A stretch of 31,883 bases of DNA, from IMG/VR virus record IMGVR_UViG_3300025736_000107, positions 1 through 31,883 of that record. One strand, written 5' to 3'. Under the pieces are notes generated by a model, which saw only the letters and a program-made list of their open reading frames with translations, searched no databases and was not told where the DNA came from. Positions within the stretch are counted from its first letter, which is position 1. Each line of letters opens with the position of its first letter. The stretch comes from a virus. Made by a program: the position numbers and the translations under genes. Of the stretch, positions 7,796-31,800 are shown one piece after another.

Positions 7796-9115
7796 TTAAC
7801 TCGCCTGTTGATAGAATTGTGACCAGTCATCATAACCACCACCATCACCACCGGGGACGCCCAGTCCGGACCTGATACCCAACGCCAGGTAGCGGAAGGC
7901 ATCGGCGGCGTGGCTCGACCAGTCGTGCAGTGGGATTACTGAGTACACGTTGTTTTTCTCGTCGAATCGTTTGCGGTAGTTTTCGAGGCACTTGATGCCT
8001 TGGGCACATCTCTGCTCGTCGAACCAGCTTAGAGGCAAGCAGGTGCGAGCAGCCTCGATGCCGTCTTGCAGCGGCAGTCGTGGCAATACCTCAAACTCCA
8101 GGCCTAATTGCTGGGCGAACTCACGGCGGGATATGCCGGTGGCCAGCTCCCTGACCTCGATGTCATGGGGTGCGATGTGACACAGATATGTCCAGCCTCG
8201 TTCCTGCCGCATGTCTTCGAGCACCTTGACATAATGTGCCAGCCCCTCACCTGAAGTGGAGTAGAAGTCAATCAAGTGGATCTCTGTGCCGATCACCTGA
8301 GCGAACCAGATGGTTGTGTCGTCGCCGACGCCCAGGTCCCAGGCTGTCACCACCAAGGCCGCCGGGTCATAGGGGACGGTGGTGAGCCGCCCATCAGTGA
8401 GAGCCTTGGCCATGAACTTGCCGTAATATGAGCCCTCAGCGCCCAGCAGGAATGAGCAGTAGAATTCTTGCTGCACCATATCCTCGCTCATACCCGATTC
8501 TCGCTCGTCCTGGATGGCATCCAGGCTGACAGCGTGGGTGCTGTCGACGGTGAGGATCTCGCTGAACCATTTGTCGTTCGCCTGACCCATCTTGACGAGG
8601 TCATAGGCGTGGTTCTTACCGCGGGGAGTGAAGTTAAACGCCGCCCAGCCATCATTTTCCGCCAGGATTGGGCGAACTAAATCCCATGCTCTGGGGTTCT
8701 GTAAGCTGAACTCACAGAAGACACAGCCGATGGGGTTGATGCCGACGTTGTCTATGTGATCCGTGCCGATGATCTGCCATATCGAGCCGTTAGTGAGCTC
8801 GATAAGCATCTCAGACTCGTTGATTCGCTTGACGATCTCGCGTGGGAAGTGGTCGCGGAAGCGGAAGCCGGTGCGGTCCATGCCCTCCCACAGGATCCTA
8901 CGGCCCATCTTGGTCGTCGGGAAGAAATACGGATAATATCCCCGCCGTTGATAAGCCCTTGCTACCTGGTAGTTTAGGAATGTCTTGTCTTTCCCCGCCC
9001 GACGGTGCCATACCGCAATAGATCGCTTACAGCCCTCGTCCATAGCCCGTAGGAACGGGACCTGGTATGAGCGTGGCTCGAAATTATGTGGGAGTTTTAC
9101 CCTTGTTTCCAGCAT
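7796..9115 (-). CDS. terL: Terminase large subunit
   Basis: 439 aa. The ATPase domain has a Walker A variant at residues 36-45 (WHRRAGKDKT), a Walker B strand ending in E135 (GCVFCEFS, with Cys where Asp or Ser is more usual), and the coupling motif NFTPRG at 161-166. The nuclease domain starts with TAWDLGVGDDTT (D260, D265/D266) and ends with SSHAADAFRY. FCEFSLQNPRAWDL matches the FSEYALQNP-type terminases of podovirus-like phages. It packages DNA into the procapsid with TerS and cuts it at the portal. The start overlaps the end of TerS by 32 nt. Confidence 0.93.
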   Translation of the reverse strand: MLETRVKLPHNFEPRSYQVPFLRAMDEGCKRSIAVWHRRAGKDKTFLNYQVARAYQRRGYYPYFFPTTKMGRRILWEGMDRTGFRFRDHFPREIVKRINESEMLIELTNGSIWQIIGTDHIDNVGINPIGCVFCEFSLQNPRAWDLVRPILAENDGWAAFNFTPRGKNHAYDLVKMGQANDKWFSEILTVDSTHAVSLDAIQDERESGMSEDMVQQEFYCSFLLGAEGSYYGKFMAKALTDGRLTTVPYDPAALVVTAWDLGVGDDTTIWFAQVIGTEIHLIDFYSTSGEGLAHYVKVLEDMRQERGWTYLCHIAPHDIEVRELATGISRREFAQQLGLEFEVLPRLPLQDGIEAARTCLPLSWFDEQRCAQGIKCLENYRKRFDEKNNVYSVIPLHDWSSHAADAFRYLALGIRSGLGVPGGDGGGYDDWSQFYQQAS

Positions 9116-9548
9116 AGTTTACGATCTCAACAGTTACGTTACCGCCAACCTCGTACTCTTGTTTCTCGTTCATATCGTGGTTGCAACTCAGCAGCAGCTT
9201 GGCGATGGTGGAGTTATACTTGCCATCGAGCCCTTTGCTGATCAGCATCTGCTTCTGGAGCCGCTTGAGCCTGCCGAGTACCCGCTCGAACGCTGGATAC
9301 CGCTTGGACCAATTCCATAGTGTTTTTTCACAGACTCTCAATAAGTGACATAATCCCTCGATGGTCGGCACCACTGAGCCGTCCTCGGTGTAGCCGGTAG
9401 CCATGTAATACTCGACTCGACCGGCTACCCATTGGTTGTACTTGGTGGGCCGACCAGGCTTTAGATATTTTACCGGCTGACCATTTTTTGGCCTCGCTTT
9501 CTTCTTTGCGACCTTCGCCTTTGGTTTTGATCTTGCTTTAACAGCCAT
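9084..9548 (-). CDS. terS: Terminase small subunit
   Basis: 154 aa from ATG 9548. A highly basic N-terminus (KARSKPKAKVAKKKARPK) precedes GRPTKYNQWVAGRVEYYMATGY and VPTIEGLCHLLRVCEKTLWNW, a helix-turn-helix typical of gp3/TerS-type packaging proteins; KGLDGKYNSTIAKLLLSCNHD is the oligomerisation part of the same family. It recognises the packaging site and delivers DNA to TerL. In-frame codons extend 30 residues further up, but this extension has no ribosome site and would overlap a good -10 box, so the shorter start is preferred. With it the mRNA would start at or next to the ATG (see promoter). Confidence 0.85.
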   Translation of the reverse strand: MAVKARSKPKAKVAKKKARPKNGQPVKYLKPGRPTKYNQWVAGRVEYYMATGYTEDGSVVPTIEGLCHLLRVCEKTLWNWSKRYPAFERVLGRLKRLQKQMLISKGLDGKYNSTIAKLLLSCNHDMNEKQEYEVGGNVTVEIVNYAGNKGKTPT

Positions 9549-9554
9549 GAGGGC

Positions 9555-9583
9555 AGTATACGACATTCCCGCAGATGACGCAA
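9555..9583 (-). promoter_or_regulatory. Sigma70-like promoter for the late operon, leaderless
   Basis: Read leftward: TTGCGT (9578-9583), a 17-nt spacer, TATACT (9555-9560), then 6 nt to the TerS ATG. The -10 matches TATAAT in 5 of 6 positions and the spacing is ideal; the -35 matches only TTG. The expected transcription start falls on the A of the ATG, so the message would be leaderless, in agreement with the lack of a Shine-Dalgarno site before TerS. Confidence 0.55.
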
Positions 9584-9671
9584 ACCATATACCAAAAATA
9601 GTGATTTCCCCAAAGTCGGTAATTATTATTTCCCACAACTTGAGAATTGGGGGTCACGAGATTGTTTACCG

Positions 9672-9694
9672 CACAAATACACAATCTATTTGTG
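9672..9694. promoter_or_regulatory. 8-bp inverted repeat in int-terS gap
   Basis: CACAAATA-7 nt-TATTTGTG, perfect arms, about 90 bp upstream of the late promoter. It could be an operator, or the core of an attachment site next to the integrase gene. The gap from 9584 to 9886 holds this repeat, an AAACGAGAAACGAAACGAG tract at 9735-9753 and the 64-bp inverted-repeat copy; no gene is convincing in it. Confidence 0.4.
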
Positions 9695-9795
9695 TAACTT
9701 TTTGGTGGGGGGGACAGTATTGGGGTGGGCTCTTAAACGAGAAACGAAACGAGAAGAGGGATTTTTAAAACGAGATCCTCGCACGCGTCTTAATA

Positions 9796-9859
9796 TTATC
9801 CTTCTCTTTATCCTTCTCTTTATCCTTCTCTTTATCCTTAGCCCCTTGCAAGGGGCTTG
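9796..9859 (-). repeat. 64-bp repeat, copy A (iterons plus palindrome), inverted relative to copy B
   Basis: Read leftward, this stretch is identical over 64 nt to 19298-19361 inside the putative replication-organiser gene: a perfect 18-bp palindrome AGCCCCTTGCAAGGGGCT followed by AAGGATAAAGAG repeated at 12-bp period (three full units here). Outside the 64 nt the two loci diverge, though the flank also reads AGCCCCTTCC here against GTCCTTG in the gene. It may be a cis-acting replication or integration site, or the relic of a second copy of the same gene: the reading frame of the gene copy stays open in it. Confidence 0.9.
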
Positions 9860-9886
9860 GAAGGGGCTTATTTAATTTACGCACTT

Positions 9887-10780
9887 TTAAATCCGCCCCA
9901 GGATATCGTCAGAGTGCCTTTGCTGCAAATAGGCGTAGCTCCGCCGGGTGGTGTCGACAGATCGATGCCCCAGATATGCTGAGAGCTGGTAGATATCGCC
10001 ACCGGCCTGTACGTAACGACTTGCGAATGTTGATCTTAGACCGTGGAGCAGGTTTCCCATCCGCTTAAACGCTTTGACTTGCTTTAGGGGCTGGAATAGT
10101 GCCCGCCACTGCTTTCCTCCGATCGCACCGCCGCGATGGCCGGGGAACACGTACCCGGACGGCTGGGCATATTGCTTGAGTAGTGCGGCTAATTCTGGGT
10201 GCAGGGGGACCGCACGGCCCCTCTTACCGCGTTCCTTGCGAATCACGAGTAAGTTATCGGGAAACATCACATCGTCCCACCTGAGCCGCCTGGCTTCGTC
10301 TGAGCGTAAGCCAGCCTTGAGGATGATGAACACACCCAGATATGCCAATTTGCCCATCTTGGCGGCAACTGATAAGACTTGATCATATTCCTTGTTGGTC
10401 AGGAATCGAGGCGGCGGGTCGAGTATCTTTGGGAGCCTTACCTGCTGGCAGGGGTTGGATGGTAAGTGGCTATGATTAACCAGGAACGTACAAAAGCCGC
10501 TGATAGTTATTTTATAACCCCTGACTGTTCGGTCTTTGACCTTGAGGATATTGCAGAACTGCTGAACTGAGGTGGTGGTGATTTGGGATATATCAACGAT
10601 CTTGGCGGCGGACAAATACTTCCCGAGCCTGCATTTTACGTTCGAGTAATGCTTAGGGCTGCTGGTGTTGCGTTTGATCGTTTCAAGATACATGTCTTTG
10701 AGGCTGTCTAGGTCGGTTTTTATGCCCTTGGCGGCATTATCAAGTCGTAACCGCTGGGCCTTGGCCAGTTCTTCGGCCAC
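9887..10780 (-). CDS. int: Tyrosine recombinase (phage integrase)
   Basis: 297 aa from GTG 10780. The catalytic residues are present: R159 (AGLRSDEA), a lysine in the beta hairpin (about K182-K187), H246 and R249 (HGLR), H272 (LGHRS) and Y282 (RRSYAYL). A SAM-like core-binding domain lies at about 25-115. The N-terminal arm-binding domain usual in phage integrases is missing. No ribosome site is seen at the GTG; in frame 14 codons upstream stands an ATG followed at once by TGA (10825-10820), so the 5' end may be truncated or mutated. It catalyses site-specific integration into and excision from the host chromosome, with the divergent HTH gene as likely partner. Confidence 0.88.
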   Translation of the reverse strand: MAEELAKAQRLRLDNAAKGIKTDLDSLKDMYLETIKRNTSSPKHYSNVKCRLGKYLSAAKIVDISQITTTSVQQFCNILKVKDRTVRGYKITISGFCTFLVNHSHLPSNPCQQVRLPKILDPPPRFLTNKEYDQVLSVAAKMGKLAYLGVFIILKAGLRSDEARRLRWDDVMFPDNLLVIRKERGKRGRAVPLHPELAALLKQYAQPSGYVFPGHRGGAIGGKQWRALFQPLKQVKAFKRMGNLLHGLRSTFASRYVQAGGDIYQLSAYLGHRSVDTTRRSYAYLQQRHSDDILGRI

Positions 10781-10871
10781 GCCTTTGCCCGGCGTCCTGA
10801 GGGATCGCCGTAGAGCTACTCACATGGGCAAATTGTGCGCCCACAAATTGATTTATAGAAAGGATTCACGG

Positions 10872-11084
10872 ATGAATCAGGCAGATTTGAAGGTGAGCCC
10901 ATCGGGGCTTGTGGATTTGACGGGGGCGGCGGCGTATTTGGGGTGCGGATTAAGTGCTGTGCGGTATCTGAGGCGGACAAAACAGCTACGATGTCTGACA
11001 CTGGGGGGGCGACTTCGCTTTAAGATTAGCGACCTGGACGCCTATGTTGAGCGTAATCTGGCCGCGGAGGGGGTGGAAGTATGA
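10872..11084 (+). CDS. Small HTH DNA-binding protein, excisionase-like
   Basis: 70 aa. SGLVDLTGAAAYLGCGLSAVRYLRRTKQL followed by GGRLRFKISDLDAYVERNL is the MerR/HTH_17 (excisionase-type) winged helix: first helix, recognition helix, then the short wing and the DLDAYVE helix. AAAGGA precedes the ATG by 8 nt. It is divergent from int with a 91-bp gap that contains CAAATTG twice, 15 nt apart, and a GGGC...GCCC inverted repeat, possible binding sites. Likely it controls int/excision direction, or acts as an early regulator. It overlaps the next start by 4 nt. Confidence 0.75.
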   Translation: MNQADLKVSPSGLVDLTGAAAYLGCGLSAVRYLRRTKQLRCLTLGGRLRFKISDLDAYVERNLAAEGVEV

Positions 11085-11554
11085 CCAAAACAACCAAACT
11101 CAAGCTAACCACCATCAGCACCAACGGCGGCACCGAGTCCCACGGGATAATCGACTTGGAACGGGTGGCTGATCACGGTCCCGATACGAAGGTTGAAAAT
11201 AATCCCAAAGTGCAAGGGGAAGAGCAGGTAACTACACGTCCAGCAGCTACAGTCTCTAAAAACGCCTCTGACGGGCGTTTTCTCGGCACAGAATCGCATA
11301 AGTCACGCCAAAAGGTATCACAGGCCATATCGCCCCAGGTCGAGCAAAAATTGGCCCAAATGCCCTCTGCTTATCGAAAAACCTACCGCAAGGCGATGAC
11401 AGGCAAAAGCCTACGGGCGGCGGTCAATGCGTTCTGCTCGGAATGTGTATGTTGGCAGCGCGAAGAGGTGAAAAATTGTACCTCCCATACCTGCCCACTC
11501 TATCAGTATCGACCTTATAGCGGGAAAGTCGCTTCGCCGAGGGTGCAAATATGA
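11081..11554 (+). CDS. Cys-rich protein of unknown function
   Basis: 157 aa. The N-terminal ~80 residues are polar and probably disordered. The C-terminal part holds a helix-rich segment (MPSAYRKTYRKAMTGKSLRAAVNAF) and a cysteine cluster CSECVCW...CTSHTCPLYQYRPY, a presumed zinc-binding motif that I recognise from uncharacterised phage and plasmid-borne proteins with the ending CPLYxYRP. Strong GGAGG lies upstream. It overlaps both neighbours by 4 nt, thus is part of a tight three-gene unit. The coding sequence contains a terminator-like hairpin at 11259-11281. Confidence 0.7.
   Translation: MTKTTKLKLTTISTNGGTESHGIIDLERVADHGPDTKVENNPKVQGEEQVTTRPAATVSKNASDGRFLGTESHKSRQKVSQAISPQVEQKLAQMPSAYRKTYRKAMTGKSLRAAVNAFCSECVCWQREEVKNCTSHTCPLYQYRPYSGKVASPRVQI
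11259..11281. terminator. Terminator-like hairpin inside a coding region
   Basis: AAAACGCC-7 nt-GGCGTTTT, perfect 8-bp stem, with TTTTC on the plus strand and TTTTT on the minus strand. It meets the form of a bidirectional intrinsic terminator yet lies within the 157-aa gene (encoding SKNASDGRFLG). It could reduce expression of the downstream gene or stop antisense transcription. Confidence 0.45.
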
Positions 11555-12197: not shown

Positions 12198-12881
12198 CAG
12201 CGCCTTAAAGCTTACCATCTACCTTCTGGAGCTATAGGCTATCAGAATACTCCCTGTGAGCGATCTCTGCTGGTGGTGATGACAGCGAGTATAAAACTAG
12301 GTCGTTGGAAAAATGTAAGAGGATATTGGCAGTTGAGAGTGAGAAAACAGCCTGAGCCTTCTGGCGAAAACGAAACGAAAGAAGATTTATAAGAAACGAA
12401 ACGAACCCGGGCCGTATCCGTAACGAAAACGTAACGAAAACGAAAACACTCTTAAAAATTTTAGCGCGACGAAAATTGTTTTTTTATTGCATAAGCCGAG
12501 CCTGAACTTGATAGCACCTACTTGACACTGGCAGGGGGGATGCAATCTCTGGTGCCTAGTGAGCCCCGACCGTGGCACCAATGCTGGCCACTTTTTCACG
12601 GATTGCACTATGGGGGGTATATCCTGGAAAATGCGGCGGTGACTTATGGGCCCAACTTGGCCAAGTCCTTATGAAGCAGTCAAAGCACGCATTCTGGCGA
12701 TGGTGAAGGCTGGTCAATGTGGCTAACGCAAATGTTATATTTAACCACTTGAGCGTATAGGACTCATAAACTCTTACATTTTATTGTAGTCTTTAGTCTT
12801 TTATTAGCAATGACTTAGAGAGAACAGCAAAAAACAACCAATAAAGGATGTTGCTAAAAAGAGTCGCGTGAACTAACCTCC
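12198..12881. other. Non-coding region with CGAAAC repeats
   Basis: No convincing gene. A short frame at 12279-12392 (37 codons, weak GGTGGTG before its ATG, containing KLGRWKNVRGYWQLRV) is possible but unproven. At 12364-12452 lies a cluster of CGAAAC/AACGAAAACG units, partly resembling the tract at 9735-9770. ACTTGGCCAAGT at 12653-12664 is a perfect 12-bp palindrome. The AT-rich part 12730-12860 probably holds the promoter of the long early operon, but I see no clear -35/-10 pair. The region could also hold an origin or enhancer-type sites. Confidence 0.5.
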
Positions 12882-16910: not shown

Positions 16911-17633
16911 ATGAACGAAGATCGAAATTGTACTTTACCAGATTGTACTACGCAGGAGGTAATTGATAGCCTGCTTCAAAACGTTGTCCGGCCTGGTATG
17001 TGTGAGTTGCGGACGTACTTGAAGTGGGAGGGGTTTTACACCTCACCAGCCTCCACCAAGTACCACGGCTGCTATGAAGGTGGCCTGGCACAACACTCAT
17101 ACGACGTGTATTGTCAGTTGGTCGCAAGAGTTGCCACCTTACGGCTTGGTGAAGTGATGTCTTTTGGCCAAAAGCCCTTACCCATCAAGCCTGAGAATCT
17201 TATTGTCGCGGCCCTGCTGCACGATGTCTGCAAGATCGGAGCCTACCTGGGGGACGCCAAGCCCTACAAGTGGAATCGGGCACAGCCCAAAGGGCATGCG
17301 TTACTGTCGATTGAGCGAATCTCGCAGTATATCGAACTCGAACCCATCGAGGAGCTAATGATCCGCTACCACATGGGCCTCTACGGGCTGCATGAATTTG
17401 AGGGTAAGGGTGAGTACCCGCTGCAAGGGAAATCCCAAGGCAGCAAAGAGGATCGGTACGGTAAATCATTACGCAACGCGTGGTATCACAATCCTATCTG
17501 CAAAGTGATATATTTCTGTGACGAACTCGCAACCCTATCGGAGAAAGCCCGTGAATTTCAAACAGCTCAAGAGCTCCTCAAAAGCGAACCTGTATCTTGT
17601 GACGGCGGCGAACGGGCGGCGGCTGCTGATTGA
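16911..17633 (+). CDS. HD-domain phosphohydrolase
   Basis: 240 aa. The metal ligands of the HD superfamily are visible: H52/H62 (YHGCYEGGLAQHS), H104-D105 (ALLHDVCKIG), H129, H154 (RYHMGLYG) and D204 (FCDELAT). HD proteins hydrolyse phosphate ester bonds in nucleotides or nucleic acids; the substrate is not deducible. A strong GGAG precedes the ATG. The last 83 nt overlap the MBL-fold gene in another frame, so the last ~27 residues (AREFQTAQELLKSEPVSCDGG and on) are poorly conserved-looking and may be dispensable. The location between recombination genes suggests nucleotide or nucleic-acid processing. Confidence 0.8.
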   Translation: MNEDRNCTLPDCTTQEVIDSLLQNVVRPGMCELRTYLKWEGFYTSPASTKYHGCYEGGLAQHSYDVYCQLVARVATLRLGEVMSFGQKPLPIKPENLIVAALLHDVCKIGAYLGDAKPYKWNRAQPKGHALLSIERISQYIELEPIEELMIRYHMGLYGLHEFEGKGEYPLQGKSQGSKEDRYGKSLRNAWYHNPICKVIYFCDELATLSEKAREFQTAQELLKSEPVSCDGGERAAAAD

Positions 17634-18324
17634 GTGCGGTGACGCGTGGGACAAGATACAGAAGGCCCTCGACTTTAAGTTGGCTGGCATCCACAGCTGC
17701 CTGCTGAGTCACGAACACAAGGACCACAGCAAGTCAGTTAAGGACGTCATAGATGCCGGCATACACGTAGTATGCAGCAGCGCCACAGCTGCCGAAGTGG
17801 GTATCAGGCCGACCCTGGCCGAGACAAAAAAGTGGAAGATACAGGAGTCGCAAGAGCAGTTCAAGATGGTGCATACCGTTAAGGCTGGCGATTTGATAAC
17901 GCTGACCGACACTTTTATAGTCCGAGCGATGAGCATGGTGCATGATGCCGTTGACCCGTTGGGCTACCGGGTGGTAGACACATCGTCGGGTGACAGTTTG
18001 TTCTTCGCCACCGACACCAGCTACCTGCACCTTCGCAAGGATCCATTTCCACCCCAGAACATCATAGCGATCGAGTGCAACTATGACGAGAAGATACTAC
18101 GCGAGCGGGTGCATTCTGGTGAGGTGAACCCGCACCTGGCTATGCGGCTGCTGACCTCACACATGTGCAAACGGGTGTGTCTACGCTACCTCAAATACTC
18201 ATTCGACCTATCGGGTTGCAGAGAGATACACCTGTTGCACATGAGTGCCAGTAACATCGACCGAGAAGCCACCCGCCGAGAATTTGAAGAACAGTTATTT
18301 ACTAAAGTGATAACCATACAATAG
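17551..18324 (+). CDS. MBL-fold metallo-hydrolase, possible exonuclease
   Basis: 257 aa from GTG 17551, chosen for GGAG 7 nt upstream and because the first beta strands (ANLYLVTAANGRRLLIECG) need this start. The HxHxDH metal motif is SHEHKDH (H54, H56, D58, H59); further ligands are in MVHDAVDP, FATDTSY and the late LLHMS. The order resembles the YycJ/WalJ group of phage and bacterial MBL proteins, some of which are 5' to 3' exonucleases. With an SMC protein and a putative annealing protein next to it, a DNA-end-processing role is attractive but inferred. It overlaps the HD gene by 83 nt. Confidence 0.78.
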   Translation: MNFKQLKSSSKANLYLVTAANGRRLLIECGDAWDKIQKALDFKLAGIHSCLLSHEHKDHSKSVKDVIDAGIHVVCSSATAAEVGIRPTLAETKKWKIQESQEQFKMVHTVKAGDLITLTDTFIVRAMSMVHDAVDPLGYRVVDTSSGDSLFFATDTSYLHLRKDPFPPQNIIAIECNYDEKILRERVHSGEVNPHLAMRLLTSHMCKRVCLRYLKYSFDLSGCREIHLLHMSASNIDREATRREFEEQLFTKVITIQ

Positions 18325-18933: not shown

Positions 18934-19860
18934 ATGGCAAAGAGATTTGCAGACACTGATAAGTTTAAAAAACCTTTTTATCGAGGCTTGCCAGGAGCGT
19001 ACAAGCTACTCTGGGATTATATCTGTCTAGACTGTAATCACGCTGGGGTTTGGATAGTTGATATGGAAGTTGCGGAGCTAAGAATAGGGAAGGATATGCC
19101 AGTAAAAATTGCGGTGGCATTACAACTTTTTAACTCTGGAGAGTGGCGAGTTATTGAGTTTTCCAGCCATGAAAAATGGTTCATAAGGCCGTTTATCGAG
19201 TTCCAGTATGGCACGTTAAATCCTACTAACAGGGTACACCAATCCGTTATAAATTCCTTACAGAATTATAATTTACTTCACACAATTGAGGTCCTTGCAA
19301 GCCCCTTGCAAGGGGCTAAGGATAAAGAGAAGGATAAAGAGAAGGATAAAGAGAAGGATAAAGAGAAGGATAAAGAGAAGGATAAGGATAAAGACCAAAA
19401 ACAAGTTTTTGAATCTGTCCGAAAATTATATCCGGGGACCAAACGGGGTCTTGACGTTGAATGGGGTGACTTCCGCAAGAAGCATAAGAACTGGCGTGAG
19501 ATTCTGCTGTTGTTGGAGCCAGCGATTAAAAAACAAATTGAGCGACGACGGGTGACTAAAGAGGCAAAAGCGTTCGTCCCTGAATGGAAGCACTTTAAGA
19601 CGTGGGTAGGCCAAAGTTGTTGGGAAGAGGAGTTTGGTGAAACACAGAACGCGGACAACGTCAAACTTTGTGTGGTTGATAGAAAACCGGGTTGTAAATT
19701 CCAAATGAATCGTGAACACAAAAAGGTGTGGTTATGCCAAGGATGCCACGATGCAATTAGAAAGGTCGGCGTACAAAACTTTGGGGACTTGTCACAAGAT
19801 AAGATTGAAGCGTATGTGTTGAAGGGCAAGGCGGATCGTACAGTTACTGGAGTTGGCTAA
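18934..19860 (+). CDS. Putative replisome organiser / replication initiation protein
   Basis: 308 aa. The N-terminal domain (1-115) with FYRGLPGAYKLLWDYICLDCNHAGVWIVD and KWFIRPFIEFQYGTL matches a winged-helix family of phage replication proteins. A charged linker of Lys-Asp-Lys-Glu repeats spans about 129-154. The C-terminal domain (LYPGTKRGLDVEWGDFRKKH ... FVPEWKHFKTWVGQSCWEEEF) is like the helicase-loader-interacting part of replisome organisers. Then Cys pairs (PGCKF, LCQGCH) suggest a small zinc site. AAGGA precedes the ATG. It would bind the origin and recruit host helicase; the window has no polymerase or helicase. The DNA encoding the linker is a 12-bp iteron array next to an 18-bp palindrome, a layout recalling origins located inside initiator genes. 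Confidence 0.72.
   Translation: MAKRFADTDKFKKPFYRGLPGAYKLLWDYICLDCNHAGVWIVDMEVAELRIGKDMPVKIAVALQLFNSGEWRVIEFSSHEKWFIRPFIEFQYGTLNPTNRVHQSVINSLQNYNLLHTIEVLASPLQGAKDKEKDKEKDKEKDKEKDKEKDKDKDQKQVFESVRKLYPGTKRGLDVEWGDFRKKHKNWREILLLLEPAIKKQIERRRVTKEAKAFVPEWKHFKTWVGQSCWEEEFGETQNADNVKLCVVDRKPGCKFQMNREHKKVWLCQGCHDAIRKVGVQNFGDLSQDKIEAYVLKGKADRTVTGVG
19298..19393 (+). repeat. 64-bp repeat copy B with extended iterons, candidate origin
   Basis: AGCCCCTTGCAAGGGGCT (19300-19317), then five full copies of AAGGATAAAGAG (19318-19377) and a partial AAGGATAAGGATAAAG. The first 64 nt (19298-19361) recur inverted at 9796-9859. Iterons next to a palindrome, within the gene of a replication organiser, resemble the arrangement of lambda-type origins. 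Confidence 0.88.
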
Positions 19861-20745: not shown

Positions 20746-20966
20746 TGACCAAGAAGATTATCACGCTGGAAGTGGATGAGTTAGACTATAAATCGATATA
20801 CGAAGCAATATTGATTCGCAACGTAAAATTCAAGGACGTCCACGGTAACGTGGTGATGCCAGACATCGACACGTCAAACGGTGCGGTTGTTGCAGAGATA
20901 TGTCGCGGGTGGATGGATTTTATGTTCTTCGCTTGCGATAAAAACCCGGAAGGCGGTGACAAGTGA
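20745..20966 (+). CDS. Small protein with a deleted paralogue nearby
   Basis: 73 aa (KKIITLEVDELDYKSIYEAI...). GAAAGG lies upstream and the start shares TGATG with the previous gene, the stop does the same with the next. Its first 20 codons and its last ~25 nt are found again, fused together, at 22471-22560, which proves a duplicated gene family within this phage. The protein looks like a small alpha/beta domain. Function unknown. Confidence 0.7.
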   Translation: MTKKIITLEVDELDYKSIYEAILIRNVKFKDVHGNVVMPDIDTSNGAVVAEICRGWMDFMFFACDKNPEGGDK

Positions 20967-21709
20967 TGCGAGAGATAAAACCCTTAAAGGAACCAGAACA
21001 GGAGACAGACATGACGTGGGATGAGCTAAAAAAAACAATGCCTGACGCAAAAAAGAGCAAATGGCACCGGCACGAGAATGGTGACGGGTGGGTTGAGAAC
21101 ACTGCAACGGTAGAAGCATCAGCGTGTGTGTCTGGCAATGCGTGTGTGTCTGGCAATGCGTGTGTGTACGGCAATGCGTGTGTGTACGGCAATGCGTGTG
21201 TGTACGGCGATGCGTGTGTGTACGGCGATGCGTGGGTGTACGGCGATGCGAGGGTGTACGGCAATGCGTGGGTGTACGGCGATGCGAGGGTGTCTGGCAA
21301 TGCGTGTGTGTCTGGCAATGCGTGTGTGTACGGCAATGCGTGGGTGTACGGCGATGCGTGGGTGTACGGCGATGCGTGTGTGTACGGCAATGCGAGGGTG
21401 TACGGCGATGCGAGGGTGTACGGCGATGCGTGTGTGTCTGGCAATGCGTGTGTGTACGGCAATGCGTGGGTGTACGGCGGCAAATGGGGCAAATCTCCGT
21501 TGCATATCATAGGAAGCGTTCACAGTCTGACAGCTTGCCAACCTGGATATATCAAGATAGGGTGCGTCGCAAACACTATAAAATGGTGGCAGGAAAACAG
21601 GGTTAGTTGTGGCGAGAAAAACAATTATACAAAGGATCAAATAGAAGAGTACGGGCATTACGTTGAATTGTTCTCAAGGATATACGGAGATAGACATGAC
21701 GAAAGTTAA
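20966..21709 (+). CDS. Hexapeptide-repeat left-handed beta-helix protein
   Basis: 247 aa. After a ~45-residue N-terminus (MTWDELKKTMPDAKK, HENGDGWVENTATVEAS) come 20 perfect hexapeptide units A-[C/W/R]-V-[Y/S]-G-[N/D] (residues 53-172), which should form about 6-7 turns of a left-handed parallel beta helix, as in polymer-forming YdcK-like proteins. The C-terminal domain (HIIGSVHSLTACQPGYIKIGCVANTIKWW...GHYVELFSRIYG) is the ending common to phage members of this group. The start overlaps the upstream stop (TGATG). Role unknown; a scaffold or surface role is possible. A stacked Cys, Trp and Arg ladder would run along one face. Confidence 0.8.
   Translation: MREIKPLKEPEQETDMTWDELKKTMPDAKKSKWHRHENGDGWVENTATVEASACVSGNACVSGNACVYGNACVYGNACVYGDACVYGDAWVYGDARVYGNAWVYGDARVSGNACVSGNACVYGNAWVYGDAWVYGDACVYGNARVYGDARVYGDACVSGNACVYGNAWVYGGKWGKSPLHIIGSVHSLTACQPGYIKIGCVANTIKWWQENRVSCGEKNNYTKDQIEEYGHYVELFSRIYGDRHDES
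21122..21481 (+). repeat. Twenty tandem 18-bp units
   Basis: Each unit is GCG-NNN-GTG-TAC/TCT-GGC-AAT/GAT. The GCG, GTG and GGC codons never change; codon 2 is TGT, TGG or AGG, codon 4 TAC or TCT, codon 6 AAT or GAT (last unit GGC). The invariance of synonymous positions shows recent expansion or homogenisation at the DNA level. Confidence 0.95.
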
Positions 21710-26121: not shown

Positions 26122-29100
26122 TCACCTCTTCCTTTTCTGGCTTGAGTTGTTTCGGTATGTCTTCTTCGCCGGGGCTTCTATTACCTCTTCCTCTGGCTCG
26201 GGCTCGTAGGTACTGAATGTCATCAGGCCCGCACTCTTGGTGAGCATGTCGAACGCATCGATCTCACCGGCCAGGAACGCGATCGCGTTTTGCACCTGGA
26301 TCGGCTGCGTGGATCTGATCTGGTTGAGTAGGAAGCTGGGCACTCGCTCGTAAGACAGCGGCTTCATCCCGGTCGGGGACCACTTGACAGTCTGTCCCTG
26401 GAGCTTACCGCCTTTGGGGTCGCCTTTCTCGTACTTGCCCTTTTGGGTGGTTTTATACTCACCCTTATCGTCGACGCCCAGGAGCTCTGCCAGCGTCGTA
26501 TACTGCCGACCGGCCCAATCACTACCAGATATCGCCTCCATGGCCATCTTGAGGACGATAGAGCTCTTGTGCTTCAGTGAGATAAGCGGATGCCGAATGA
26601 ACTTCAGGGGATCCCGAAAGTGGCCCATGATGGAGAAGTATTTTCGCTTCTCGTCATCACCTCCCAGTGCCTGGTAGATCGGGGTGACGTCGACATCGAG
26701 CCATCGCAGGTATCCGGTCTTCCAAGCCTTCTTGTAGCGTTCGATGAAATTATCATCGTCCTTTAATGACAGCAGGAAGTTGGCGATCATCGTGGCGGTC
26801 AGGCCCTTCAACGCGATACGGAACCAGAAGTCCCGGTACATTTTACCTTCTTCGCCCAGCTTGAACGCCTTGGCCATCGACCGAATATTAGATTCGGTCC
26901 AATCCGGGGCGAGTAACAACAACCTGCCGATGTGCTGAGTAGTGGGGTTGCGGCCCATACGCTGGAGATGCAGGCCCCCGAAATCGTCGTTATACAGATT
27001 GGCCACCATCTTGGCCAACTTCTCATTAGTGATCGTGCCAGCCTCAAGTCGTTTACGGTACTTATGCTTGAGGTGTCGGTATTCTAATAAGGCTCCCTGA
27101 ACCTTGAGGAACGGTCCTAATTTTTGGAACAAGAACTTATTCTGCACCTCACGGAATTCCATAATCTTTTTCTTGATCGGTCCGGCAACTGGTATCTTAT
27201 CGAGGAACCGACCGATCATCGTCGTCTGGTGCTGCCAGATGCTCTCATCCCAATCCTGAGTGCGTCCAACGGTCAGGCCCGCCCCTACGATTTCCTGGAG
27301 CTCCCCGTCGAATCGCTGGATCGCCGCTCGCCCTGCCCGGTAGCCCTTGACGGTGGTGCCGATGGGATCGACGAGGCCACGGATCCCGGTCTTGCCGCCC
27401 AGAACGTACGAACGGATGAACGCCTGATGGTGGAATAGCGAAGTGAACAGTACGTTATGCTTGAGGATCATGTTCCATTTGGAGAGAGAATCCCACGCCC
27501 ACCCGTCAAGCGTAGAGCGACCGAGTGCGTTGTTGAGCTTCCTGGCGAGCTTCGGTTCGGCGAACAGCGGCTGCCATTCCAGAGCGTCCCGCTTGCCCGC
27601 ATCTTCTGGCAGGATCATAAAATTGTTGCTTCTGAGTTCATCATCCATACTGGTCAGCTCGCCGACCGGGGACCACTGGCCCAGGTGCGGGTGCACCAGC
27701 TGGATCCAATCTTGCCCCTTATCCTTGGCGGTCTTAAAAACACCTTGCTCCAGGGCAGCCTTAACCATGTATCTGTCAGCCTGAGCCTGCTCAACCTGGA
27801 TGTGAGCGGCCTGATATGCGGTTGTGGCGCCCTTAACCCATAACTCCTTACCATCGGCCCATCCTTGCAGGATCGACGAGTACAGCCGCTCCTCAGAGCG
27901 GTCAGTTTCCTGCTCGAACTTCTGGTGTCTGCCGTGCTGTCGTTTCTTCTTGGGATTGATCTTCTGGGTTTCAGCGCCCCAGAGCCGCATGGTGTAGTTG
28001 TCCACCACGTTCTGGATCATCCCGGCTGACATCTTTTCCAGACCCGCCTGGTAGTTTAGGTTGATGATTTTCTCGGCGAACTTCTTAATGGCGGGAGGTA
28101 GGTTCTGACTCTCGTCGACGAGCCCCTGCTGATCAGGAGTCAGATCGGCGTAAAACTTATCGATCTCGACCGCCTCTTTGCCCTTGAGGTCGATATACAA
28201 CTGCACCGCCGCATCGATCCGCTTGAGCTCCCGCGTGGTCTTGGCGTTAATCTTCTTGATCCCAGCGGCCACCGCCAACTCCTGCTGTAGGGCGTCGGTC
28301 GCGCCGTTAATACCCATCGCCGCCACGTCGCGATCATACCACCAGCTATCCCAGATCTCTTCGATCTTCGCGACCGAAACCTGCTTAATGTCCTTGATCC
28401 ACTTGTCTTTCTTGTAACTGCGTCGACCTTCCAGATAATCGAACACTGCCTTAGCGACGTCCTCCTTCGCGATCTTCTTCTGCTCGTCTTTAGGCGGGAC
28501 CATCGGGTCGGGTTTGCGGCCCATCTTCTCAAGAGCCTCACGGTCACGTTTATGGAGTTCCTGGTTCGCCGGGGTCATCTCCTTGAGCTCGTCGTAGTAA
28601 TCGTCCCAGCTTTCCAGGTTGTCCTTGTATTTTGGGCGGGAGATTTTCTTGTCGTCTTCCTCGCCCTCCTCGCGGATCTGGAAGGATGGACCTGGCTTGA
28701 TCTCTTCGCCCGCGTAGAATCGCTTAATGATGCCAATAACCTTGATCGGTTTCGTCCCTGCCTGAAATTCTACATTGGTGCGACGGCCAGACACTTGGTA
28801 ATACTCGTTGTGCTTGTCATAATCACCTAACCCGTCCTGTAGGTCCAGCATGACCTCACCGTTGTGTTGTCCGATCCACCCGGTAAGTTTTGATAGTTGT
28901 TTGGCGTTTGGCAGTTGCATCAGGTCGATACCACCGGACTCTGGTAACAAACGGATATTACCCAAATTCATATATTCCAACATACCATTGGTGCCGCCTG
29001 CCTCTCGGTGGTCGTAGGATCGCTCGCCATGCGGTCCACCTTCTCGCTTGCCTGAGAGGTCTATATATGTGCCTGTGGTGGTGAGATAACCAGCCTCGGC

Positions 29101-31800
29101 GATGTTGGTGGTGGTGCCCAGCTTCTTGATCCGCTTACGATCGATATTGCCGGTGGGTGCCGGCCCCTTGGCGATCGGCTCGCCCTTAGCGGCCTTGTAC
29201 GCCTTTTGCCAATCGGGCTGATACTCGAAGATCGTCGGGTTCTTATCGAACAATCCCTTGACATCCTTGGCACCGCGGACATCATAGCCCTGGCGTTTAA
29301 GGTGCCGGGATATCTTAGACCACTCTTCGTTAGTGATCGATTTGGGATCTATATCACGTACCTGGAAGGACACATTAGCCTTAACGGCCCGAGAGTCGAT
29401 GGCTTTCGCCTTCATTGGCGCGGCCTTGGCTGGCTTTCTGACCCCTGTCCCGGACTCTTGGTACATTTCTTCAATTTCTTTGGGAATCTTAGCACCACGC
29501 AGCGTCCGGATCCGCTGGATCAGAGCTCGCAGGGACTTTCTGGCCCCGGCAAACAGCTCTCTAATTGGGCCTGCCGTCTCATGCAGCTTCCGTCCGAAGT
29601 GGAAGTCTCGCCCCTCCTGCCCGTAATGCTCTTCTACGCTCCGTCCGTCTTCTGAGGCGACATGATATTTCCGATAAACCGCTTGCTTTTGGGGTGATAG
29701 GCGATACCAGGCCCGGTGATACCACTCTTCGACGAGGGTGTCCGCATCGTGACCGCGATAGAGTTGGATGGCTGTTCGGGTGGCAGAGCTTTCAAGGTTA
29801 GGGAAAGTGAACCCCATGACCCCGTATTTCTTTTTTGTTCCGTCGGCATTGTATTTCGTCAATCCTTCCGCTTCTATAATCTCGTCGGTCGCCGCCATGA
29901 CCTCACCGGAGATCATCAGAGCGTCGTTGGCGTCGAAATCAGGGTCCGTTTTTATCAGCTGCTTGGCCAGCCGGGCAGTGCCTTTGGACGTGGTGCCCCA
30001 TTTGACCTGGCGATCGATCTCGGCGATCGTCTTGTTCGCCCCGGTCCCCTCCGGTTCCGTTGCCGTAGCTGCGATCGCCTTCGGGGGCTTCTCAACTACC
30101 GCAGATTCCTCGGCAGTTGGCTTGGTTTTTGCTATTTCTCGTTCAACTGATTTAATTCTATATAACGGTACTCGATGGTTACCAATAACCGCTACGGCAG
30201 CTTCCGCACTATCTACAGAACCAGCAGAATTACCCTTGAACTCACCCACCACCTCGCCGCCATTAGTGGTCCTGAGCCGAATAATATCACCTTCACGCAA
30301 TCGGCCATATTCTACTTCCTCCCACTGCGGTTTCCAATCCACGTCCTCAGTCGCACCCTGCTCGCTCAAAGGCGTTATTTCCGATTCTAAGGGCTTATCT
30401 TTTTTGGAGGTAGTTTGAGAGGTCTTCTCGGGGATCGTCGGTCCTGGGACCGTAGAGCTGCCCTGAGGGGCGTCCTTTGGTGCTCCAGGCTGTGGCTTAC
30501 CCGCAACTTCGGGGGCAGAGCCTGGCGGTGGGACGGGTCTTGGTTTGAACTCCGAGGTCCTGCCGTGAAGAAAGTTAGATGCATCTGTCGCATTAGCAAA
30601 CTCAGCCTCCCTGCCGGTCCCGACAATATCCGGGTGAGTCTGGTGCGATTTTGCTCTATAAGCCTTTTTGATTTGTGATTCTGTGGCGTTACTCGGCAGC
30701 CCAAGCTCAGATAGAGCCTGCTCCCGCATCCGCCACAGCTCCGAAGTTGCCTTCTCCATCTCCATCAGGCTCTTACCGGCCAGCATGGATTTTGCTTTCG
30801 CTCGCACGACGCCGGACAATCTCAGGGCCGGCGGCAATAAAGCGGCAATGATTACATCCTCGAGTTCACCACCCTGGGACGCCGCTAAACTTGCAAACAG
30901 GGCAGATTCCGCCCCCAGCTCCCCAGCCGCCCCCATCTTGCCTAATTTTCGCAACTTGCCCAGAGTCTTAAGCGTACCGCTCATGGCGGCCCCTTCGCCG
31001 GGCAATCCGCCAGACGCCCGACTCTCGACCTCCCAGGCCAGAGCGTCGTGTAAGGTTCCGACTTCCTTGGGAACTATTTTTTTGGCAACGTACAGCCTGG
31101 CAAGAAAAGCCGACAGGCCAGCACCAACATCGGTCACCTTTTCGCCTAATCCTTCTGGTTGCGGCACCTGTATCGCATAGCTGCCGCGTTCTTTTTCAAG
31201 TGCCTGATGAACACCTTCTCGTTCTTGGGTTTTTTCAGGGCTAAAATACGCCTTATTCATCCCGTAGACGAACTTGCCCACCTGCTTGGTATCGTGCCAC
31301 AGTTCACCTAATAGACTGCCCCCCTGGTAATCCTGTGGTTCCCCTAACGACTCGGCAGTTTGTGCTAAAACACCCATCGATTCGGCCACGTTTGAACTGG
31401 GCCTCGCCCGCTCAAGGTCTTCCAGAATGAAACGGTTCATAAACTGCTGGACGGCGCGTTCTGGTAACGCTGGACGTTCTTTATTAAATAAATCGGGCCT
31501 GGTATCTCGCACGTCCGCTGGTGTACCTGAAGGGAACTGCGGACCGGGCATGGCGGGGTTGGCTATCGGCGGTGCAGCCTGCATCGGCATCGGCGGACTG
31601 GACGGATCGGGGATCGACACGCCGGCGGATATGGACGGATCGTACTGCGGTGGTTCCTGGTAAGTGAAGCCCTGCTCGTTAGGGGCGACTGGTAGATTTG
31701 CCACAACACCAGACAGTCGGCTGGTGCTCTCTTCCGGTTCCGGACCCTCTAATTCAGGCGACCGAGGTAGGTTTGCGACGATACCAGATAGTCTGCTCAT
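26122..31800 (-). CDS. Giant multidomain internal virion / ejection-type protein with J domain
   Basis: 1892 aa. ACGGAG stands 7 nt before the ATG. Residues 2-13 and 27-38 repeat SRLSGIVANLP. A Pro-rich stretch follows to ~100. At about 358-420 lies a DnaJ-type domain: ALSELGLPSNATESQIKKAY, then HPD at 389-391. Around 660-760 (TLVEEWYHRAWYRLSPQ) and 890-1010 (AEAGYLTTTG, SYDHREAGG) are blocks like the large polyvalent protein domains of phages and conjugative elements. Residues ~1420-1870 form the long helical C-terminal domain of such proteins (FHHQAFIRSYVLGG; GLTATMIANFLLSL). It is probably packed in the virion and injected with the DNA. The tail is basic (KKTYRNNSSQKRKR). This gene takes 18% of the window. 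Confidence 0.8.
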   Translation of the reverse strand: MSRLSGIVANLPRSPELEGPEPEESTSRLSGVVANLPVAPNEQGFTYQEPPQYDPSISAGVSIPDPSSPPMPMQAAPPIANPAMPGPQFPSGTPADVRDTRPDLFNKERPALPERAVQQFMNRFILEDLERARPSSNVAESMGVLAQTAESLGEPQDYQGGSLLGELWHDTKQVGKFVYGMNKAYFSPEKTQEREGVHQALEKERGSYAIQVPQPEGLGEKVTDVGAGLSAFLARLYVAKKIVPKEVGTLHDALAWEVESRASGGLPGEGAAMSGTLKTLGKLRKLGKMGAAGELGAESALFASLAASQGGELEDVIIAALLPPALRLSGVVRAKAKSMLAGKSLMEMEKATSELWRMREQALSELGLPSNATESQIKKAYRAKSHQTHPDIVGTGREAEFANATDASNFLHGRTSEFKPRPVPPPGSAPEVAGKPQPGAPKDAPQGSSTVPGPTIPEKTSQTTSKKDKPLESEITPLSEQGATEDVDWKPQWEEVEYGRLREGDIIRLRTTNGGEVVGEFKGNSAGSVDSAEAAVAVIGNHRVPLYRIKSVEREIAKTKPTAEESAVVEKPPKAIAATATEPEGTGANKTIAEIDRQVKWGTTSKGTARLAKQLIKTDPDFDANDALMISGEVMAATDEIIEAEGLTKYNADGTKKKYGVMGFTFPNLESSATRTAIQLYRGHDADTLVEEWYHRAWYRLSPQKQAVYRKYHVASEDGRSVEEHYGQEGRDFHFGRKLHETAGPIRELFAGARKSLRALIQRIRTLRGAKIPKEIEEMYQESGTGVRKPAKAAPMKAKAIDSRAVKANVSFQVRDIDPKSITNEEWSKISRHLKRQGYDVRGAKDVKGLFDKNPTIFEYQPDWQKAYKAAKGEPIAKGPAPTGNIDRKRIKKLGTTTNIAEAGYLTTTGTYIDLSGKREGGPHGERSYDHREAGGTNGMLEYMNLGNIRLLPESGGIDLMQLPNAKQLSKLTGWIGQHNGEVMLDLQDGLGDYDKHNEYYQVSGRRTNVEFQAGTKPIKVIGIIKRFYAGEEIKPGPSFQIREEGEEDDKKISRPKYKDNLESWDDYYDELKEMTPANQELHKRDREALEKMGRKPDPMVPPKDEQKKIAKEDVAKAVFDYLEGRRSYKKDKWIKDIKQVSVAKIEEIWDSWWYDRDVAAMGINGATDALQQELAVAAGIKKINAKTTRELKRIDAAVQLYIDLKGKEAVEIDKFYADLTPDQQGLVDESQNLPPAIKKFAEKIINLNYQAGLEKMSAGMIQNVVDNYTMRLWGAETQKINPKKKRQHGRHQKFEQETDRSEERLYSSILQGWADGKELWVKGATTAYQAAHIQVEQAQADRYMVKAALEQGVFKTAKDKGQDWIQLVHPHLGQWSPVGELTSMDDELRSNNFMILPEDAGKRDALEWQPLFAEPKLARKLNNALGRSTLDGWAWDSLSKWNMILKHNVLFTSLFHHQAFIRSYVLGGKTGIRGLVDPIGTTVKGYRAGRAAIQRFDGELQEIVGAGLTVGRTQDWDESIWQHQTTMIGRFLDKIPVAGPIKKKIMEFREVQNKFLFQKLGPFLKVQGALLEYRHLKHKYRKRLEAGTITNEKLAKMVANLYNDDFGGLHLQRMGRNPTTQHIGRLLLLAPDWTESNIRSMAKAFKLGEEGKMYRDFWFRIALKGLTATMIANFLLSLKDDDNFIERYKKAWKTGYLRWLDVDVTPIYQALGGDDEKRKYFSIMGHFRDPLKFIRHPLISLKHKSSIVLKMAMEAISGSDWAGRQYTTLAELLGVDDKGEYKTTQKGKYEKGDPKGGKLQGQTVKWSPTGMKPLSYERVPSFLLNQIRSTQPIQVQNAIAFLAGEIDAFDMLTKSAGLMTFSTYEPEPEEEVIEAPAKKTYRNNSSQKRKR

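Follow-up and report, generated by a model that had tools for sequence, protein, structure and literature searches.

Why should a phage keep, between its integrase and small terminase genes, an inverted copy of a repeat block that also lies inside its putative replication-initiator gene? The window analysed here is the whole viral contig IMGVR_UViG_3300025736_000107 (31,883 bp), which encodes a P22-like portal (PF16510), a PF13252 capsid, terminase genes and a tyrosine integrase. The contig is that of a temperate phage, and its early region is on the strand opposite to the late genes. The best relatives of the large terminase among named phages are about 48% identical, and no close relatives were found with the integrase and the large terminase in the viral contigs searched. 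Comparison of the int-terS gap with named phages by blastn gave no match, the repeats probably being masked by the low-complexity filter.

Two inverted copies of one repeat block

The genes and elements that concern us are located as follows.

7796 to 9115, minus strand: large terminase gene
9084 to 9638, minus strand: terS, small terminase gene (GP3_package, E 6.3e-15); ORF start 157 bp from the gap element
9796 to 9873, minus strand: gap element, words AAGCCCCTT-cc-AAGCCCCTT-gc-AAGGGGCT, then 3.7 copies of the 12-mer AAGGATAAAGAG
9887 to 10780, minus strand: int, tyrosine integrase gene (PF00589, E 3.5e-20); 13 bp separate its stop codon from the gap element
18934 to 19860, plus strand: replication-initiator (replisome-organizer-like) gene, 308 aa, predicted to encode an N-terminal winged-helix-like domain, a charged linker and a variable C-terminus
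19298 to 19394, plus strand: origin-like element of the initiator gene; words 2 and 3 occupy 19299-19317 and are followed by five AAGGATAAAGAG iterons and some partial units

Positions 9796-9859 are the reverse complement of 19298-19361 at 64 of 64 nt, as the initial annotation had reported, and the match extends to 78 nt at 94% (9796-9873 / 19284-19361). The domain matches of the two neighbouring genes agree with its placing of the block between int and terS. Its judgement that the identity is beyond chance even for simple repeats also held: dispersed inverted exact matches in 10 dinucleotide shuffles of the window reached 13-15 nt at most. Although the 12-bp repeat accounts for over half of the 64 nt, the 8-bp words AAGGGGCT/AGCCCCTT number only six in the whole window, of which the gap copy has three and the gene copy two. 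A difference appears just beyond the 64 nt, where word 1 is canonical in the gap copy and carries three mismatches in the gene copy. As all three words are canonical in the gap copy and word 1 is degenerate in the gene copy, the former is no simple duplicate of the gene copy in its present state. The inversion of the 9.4-kb segment raised by the initial annotation is possible only in principle and would split the initiator gene.

The gene copy and the putative initiator

The gene copy lies in frame within the initiator gene, where it specifies SPLQGAKDKEKDKEK... as part of the protein's linker. In a structure model the N-terminal 115 residues form helices plus a beta hairpin with high pLDDT, which we read as a winged helix. 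Several of the fold matches among viral proteins are named replisome organizer, RepL or DnaD-like, with weak E-values (0.01-0.05 for the proteins named replisome organizer); PHROG matches to initiators were also weak (E about 0.002), and a fold search against the PDB gave no significant match. Based on the winged-helix-like model and these weak family matches, the 308-aa product is predicted to be a replisome-organizer-like replication initiator.

The arrangement of 8-9-bp words (AAGCCCCTT/AAGGGGCT) followed by purine-rich 12-bp iterons makes the gene copy origin-like, as if built for an intragenic origin. Fourfold-site G/C counts differed between the plus-strand genes on either side of the initiator gene (255/353 vs 171/163, p 0.008), a weak sign of an origin at this gene. 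The GC skew of the whole window has its minimum near 9.5-10 kb, where it is confounded with gene orientation. A skew change at 10-11 kb was rejected as origin evidence since it coincides with the gene-strand switch, and no skew-based origin is claimed for 9.8 kb because gene orientation also changes there.

The free-standing copy

The second array with the same words is distant and non-coding, and lies in the late region directly before terS, on the strand shared by int, terS and the late genes. Its parts are the following.

9861 to 9869, minus strand: word 1, canonical AAGCCCCTT, degenerate in the gene copy
9850 to 9858, minus strand: word 2, AAGCCCCTT
9840 to 9847, minus strand: word 3, AAGGGGCT, forming with word 2 the 18-bp palindrome AGCCCCTTGCAAGGGGCT (9840-9857)
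9796 to 9839, minus strand: purine-rich 12-bp iterons, A or T at 8/12 bases per unit

The iterons are about 67% A+T against a window average of 48%, and no strongly A+T-rich island was found beside the arrays. The gap copy retains the full array with no coding need, in a more canonical form than the gene copy. An intrinsic terminator was considered for this element and rejected, as no terminator was called and the same block lies inside coding sequence in other phages.

Array words in the initiator family

Among the initiator relatives recovered by sequence searches, nearly all arrays consist of 2-5 copies of an 8-9-bp word in both orientations, followed by purine-rich repeats. The word varies among phages (AAGGGGCT, AAGGGTAT or AAGACTAT) and the array plan is unchanged. 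Although the search pattern did not include word 1 of the AAGGGGCT type, 10 of the 19 elements from other phages carry this word exactly and 15 of the 19 carry it with at most one mismatch. It occurs either as AAGCCCCTT, encoding KPL, or as its reverse complement AAGGGGCTT, encoding KGL. Retention of the word in either orientation despite the different tripeptide indicates a constraint on the DNA and not on the protein, and such a constraint is the mark of an origin-type binding array, as in lambda O or SPP1 gene 38. Most matches to the 18-nt palindrome pattern outside initiator genes resembled ordinary terminators or unrelated coding sequence and were set aside. Extra AAGGGGCTT words were observed in the N-terminal region of the initiator gene of record G019 (L115:1040-1070; KKPFIRGLQGAYKLLW), about 300 bp upstream of the main array.

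Second arrays in other phages

The initial annotation had suggested looking for the same pair in related phages. Most phages with this initiator have the gene array only, and the 28 records with such elements in a first check carried essentially one copy apiece. A clear second word cluster outside the initiator gene was found in 3 of the 40 records with a word array, a count that is a lower bound because many records are fragments; the second site is therefore dispensable for the initiator family. The second cluster of record G065, with two words only, was not counted.

Pairs were nevertheless found in two phages of the same initiator family, G042 (IMG/VR 3300033141_004712) and G064 (IMG/VR 3300021057_000006), and in one flavophage with a different initiator, G029. 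The second copy of G042 is inverted (87% over 135 nt, E 1e-35) and forms the C-terminus of an uncharacterised ORF, to which it is fused in frame, 34 bp before a terS-like gene (PHROG E 4e-4) that is followed by terL; here the free-standing copy is the one with decayed words. G064 carries a non-coding array about 370 bp before terL, with three exact AAGGGTAT words and further near-copies, but without the purine tail, and matching words lie in its own initiator gene. Like the phage studied here, both thus combine a gene array with a second array close to the terminase genes; they differ from it in their words (AAGGGTAT) and in their second arrays, with partial decay in G042 and no purine tail in G064. 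The array of G029 lies between the tape-measure and head-protease genes and matches the array in its own initiator gene (74% identity over 126 nt, E 1e-15); no other dispersed repeat in the G029 genome is as strong. Self-comparison of flavophages G030 to G038, which have no intergenic array, showed no gene-plus-free-standing pair.

Gene-copy-only relatives, which the initial annotation had named as evidence against the pair, are thus the rule in the initiator family at large. They do not decide the matter, because the collections searched yielded no relative with the same int-terS gap.

Further free-standing arrays were found on contigs too short to show a partner array; the set was collected by word patterns, and its bias towards late modules was noticed only afterwards. 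They lie in the terL/portal gap beside a DnaA-box match, TTATCCACA (L326, L327 and L337), after terS (L078), in the tape measure/protease gap (L036 group), among head genes (L127 and L031) and at the end of the late operon (L329 and L335). At the L036 site, relatives whose flanks are about 70% identical bear arrays built from quite different words, which argues for a position that is kept although the word recognised there varies. Relatives of the L326 terminase lacked arrays in the neighbourhood of terL, so the presence of an array is not tied to the terminase lineage. On the minus strand of L326, after terL (1201-2451), the DnaA-box-like TTATCCACA is just upstream of the free-standing array. 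The arrays of L127 (5427-5760) and L031 (6479-6518) are non-coding, consist of AGGGGCT words and adjoin head genes, and no initiator gene was identified on these two contigs.

Comparison with known phage origins

The replication of Bacillus phage SPP1 offers the closest experimentally known arrangement: oriL is situated within gene 38, which encodes the initiator, oriR occupies a gap of the late region, and each consists of direct repeats and an A+T-rich unwinding element (PMC6316719, PMC3485210). Theta replication starts from oriL, and G38P bound at oriR is thought to stall the fork and to trigger concatemer synthesis (PMC6316719, PMC3485210). In both phages one origin or origin-like element is carried by the initiator gene and the other by a non-coding stretch of the late region, each copy being a repeat array (with an A+T-rich stretch in SPP1 and with A+T-richer iterons here), at a spacing of about 12-13 kb in SPP1 and 9.4 kb here. 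SPP1 is lytic and transcribed essentially from one strand, whereas the present phage has an integrase; its copies, unlike those of SPP1, are inverted and share 64 identical nt, and the second has int and terS as its neighbours and a putative attP close by. In its array layout the window fits the two-origin anatomy of SPP1.

The iterons inside gene O of lambda form an intragenic origin. A comparable case is P1, with oriL inside repL (PMC9948254). Both resemble the present phage in that the initiator gene carries its own origin, and differ from it in their words and initiator family. The intragenic origins of lambda and P1 are not known to have a matching free-standing second array.

By analogy with SPP1, we favour with moderate confidence the reading of the gap copy as a putative oriR-like second initiator-binding site. 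Of the interpretations offered by the initial annotation, the one with the best support is a second origin or initiator-binding site coupled to packaging, given the pairs in G042, G064 and G029 and the late-module arrays; its proposal of arm-type integrase sites fared poorly, as described below.

Alternative explanations

The main rival is that the gap element is a functionless fragment of another or earlier initiator gene, left beside int by module exchange. The initiator reading frame continues through the gap copy on the minus strand (..LNKPLPSPLQGAKDKEKDKEKDKEKDN..; NKPLPSPLQGAKDKEKDKEKDKEKDN; NKPLPSPLQGAKDKEK), which makes such a derivation possible, and NKPLPSPLQGAKDKEKDKEKDKEKDN still resembles rep linkers; the absence of a second copy from most relatives and the in-frame fusion in G042 point the same way. 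However, the homology does not extend past the array with its three words and iterons, no other initiator-coding sequence was recognised beside it, and neither the words nor the 44 nt of iterons have decayed although no coding constraint acts on them. Random relics would also not be expected to recur in late modules of several lineages. We consider this explanation unlikely, though deserving to be kept in mind.

A packaging start (pac/cos region) or a late promoter, bound by TerS or a regulator and only secondarily like an initiator array, would suit an element on the terS strand so near the start of that ORF, and near-terminase placement is seen again in G042, G064, L078 and L326. Yet the words match the initiator array of each phage itself and not any terminase family, the L326-terminase relatives lack arrays near terL, the arrays of the L036 and L329 groups are far from the terminase, and no sigma-70-like promoter was found at 9500-11100. 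This makes a packaging or promoter element distinctly improbable.

Arm-type or core sites for the integrase, as the initial annotation had envisaged, would be in place so close to the int stop, a frequent attP location. The same words, however, occur in the initiator genes of many phages irrespective of the integrase they carry, and a separate core-like inverted repeat lies in the gap, surrounded by ACGAGA words.

9672 to 9694, no strand assigned: candidate attP core, CACAAATA-CACAATC-TATTTGTG, perfect 8-bp inverted repeat with a 7-bp spacer, in the int-terS gap
9656 to 9775, plus strand: ACGAGA words around the core (9656, 9737, 9749 and 9770), possible arm-type sites

Such an inverted repeat turned up in 7 of 1000 shuffles of the gap, and the repeat at 9672-9694 is a better candidate for the attP core than the origin-like block, for which a role as integrase site seems very improbable. 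Hardly credible is an assembly artefact, in which one copy was misjoined through the repeat: the record is a single metagenomic contig with no close relatives found, but the sequence on either side of the gap copy does not resemble the rep gene, the gap copy has one canonical word more than the gene copy, the neighbouring int and terS genes are intact, and other contigs contain similar pairs.

A possible link between replication and packaging

If the gap copy is indeed an oriR-like site, the intragenic element at 19.3 kb would be the primary origin, where the winged-helix domain of the initiator would bind the AAGGGGCT words and the adjoining A+T-richer purine iterons would open. The int-terS copy would then be a second, free-standing site for the same initiator, filled as the initiator accumulates, at the edge of the packaging module. 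Once bound, it may fire as a late origin, stall the fork coming from the first origin, as proposed for SPP1, or do both; a stalled fork could break, and theta replication would switch to concatemer synthesis beside the packaging genes. What the sequences show is the identity of the two copies, the build of the arrays, the conservation of their words and the repeated finding of such pairs, with the free-standing member in late modules; initiator binding, origin activity, fork stalling and packaging coupling are inferred.

How double-stranded DNA phages switch from circle-to-circle replication to terminase-ready concatemers is a long-standing question, and an initiator bound at a second origin is one proposed trigger, studied mainly in SPP1. 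The similar arrangement in unrelated phages suggests that a link between replication and packaging, earlier studied mainly in that phage, is wider. We further propose, tentatively and with rather less than even confidence, that unrelated lineages repeatedly place a copy of the origin array at the packaging or head module as an initiator-controlled fork barrier or late origin, setting the start of concatemers relative to the terminase, and that this is a general unrecognised layout and not a peculiarity of SPP1. If so, word-matched second arrays at packaging and head modules would make the trigger testable in new systems, and a simple sequence screen would be available, namely a second copy of the initiator gene's own array in a phage genome.

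Other features of the window

A cluster of AACGAAA words, all on the plus strand, was observed at 12368-12445 in the non-coding region at 12.1-12.9 kb, with one further AACGAAA in the int-terS gap (9743) and TTTCGTT absent from the window; the cluster is possibly an operator or an integrase-related array. A metallo-beta-lactamase-fold protein is encoded at 17518-18324 on the plus strand; its match to the anti-Pycsar protein Apyc1 is weak and falls below the cutoff (E 0.005). The plus-strand ORF at 20963-21709 contains a long 18-bp tandem array (21050-21532), giving hexapeptide repeats of the NACVYG/DACVYG type in a 248-aa protein, and an ORF of 1892 aa on the minus strand (26122-31800) fills the right end of the contig.
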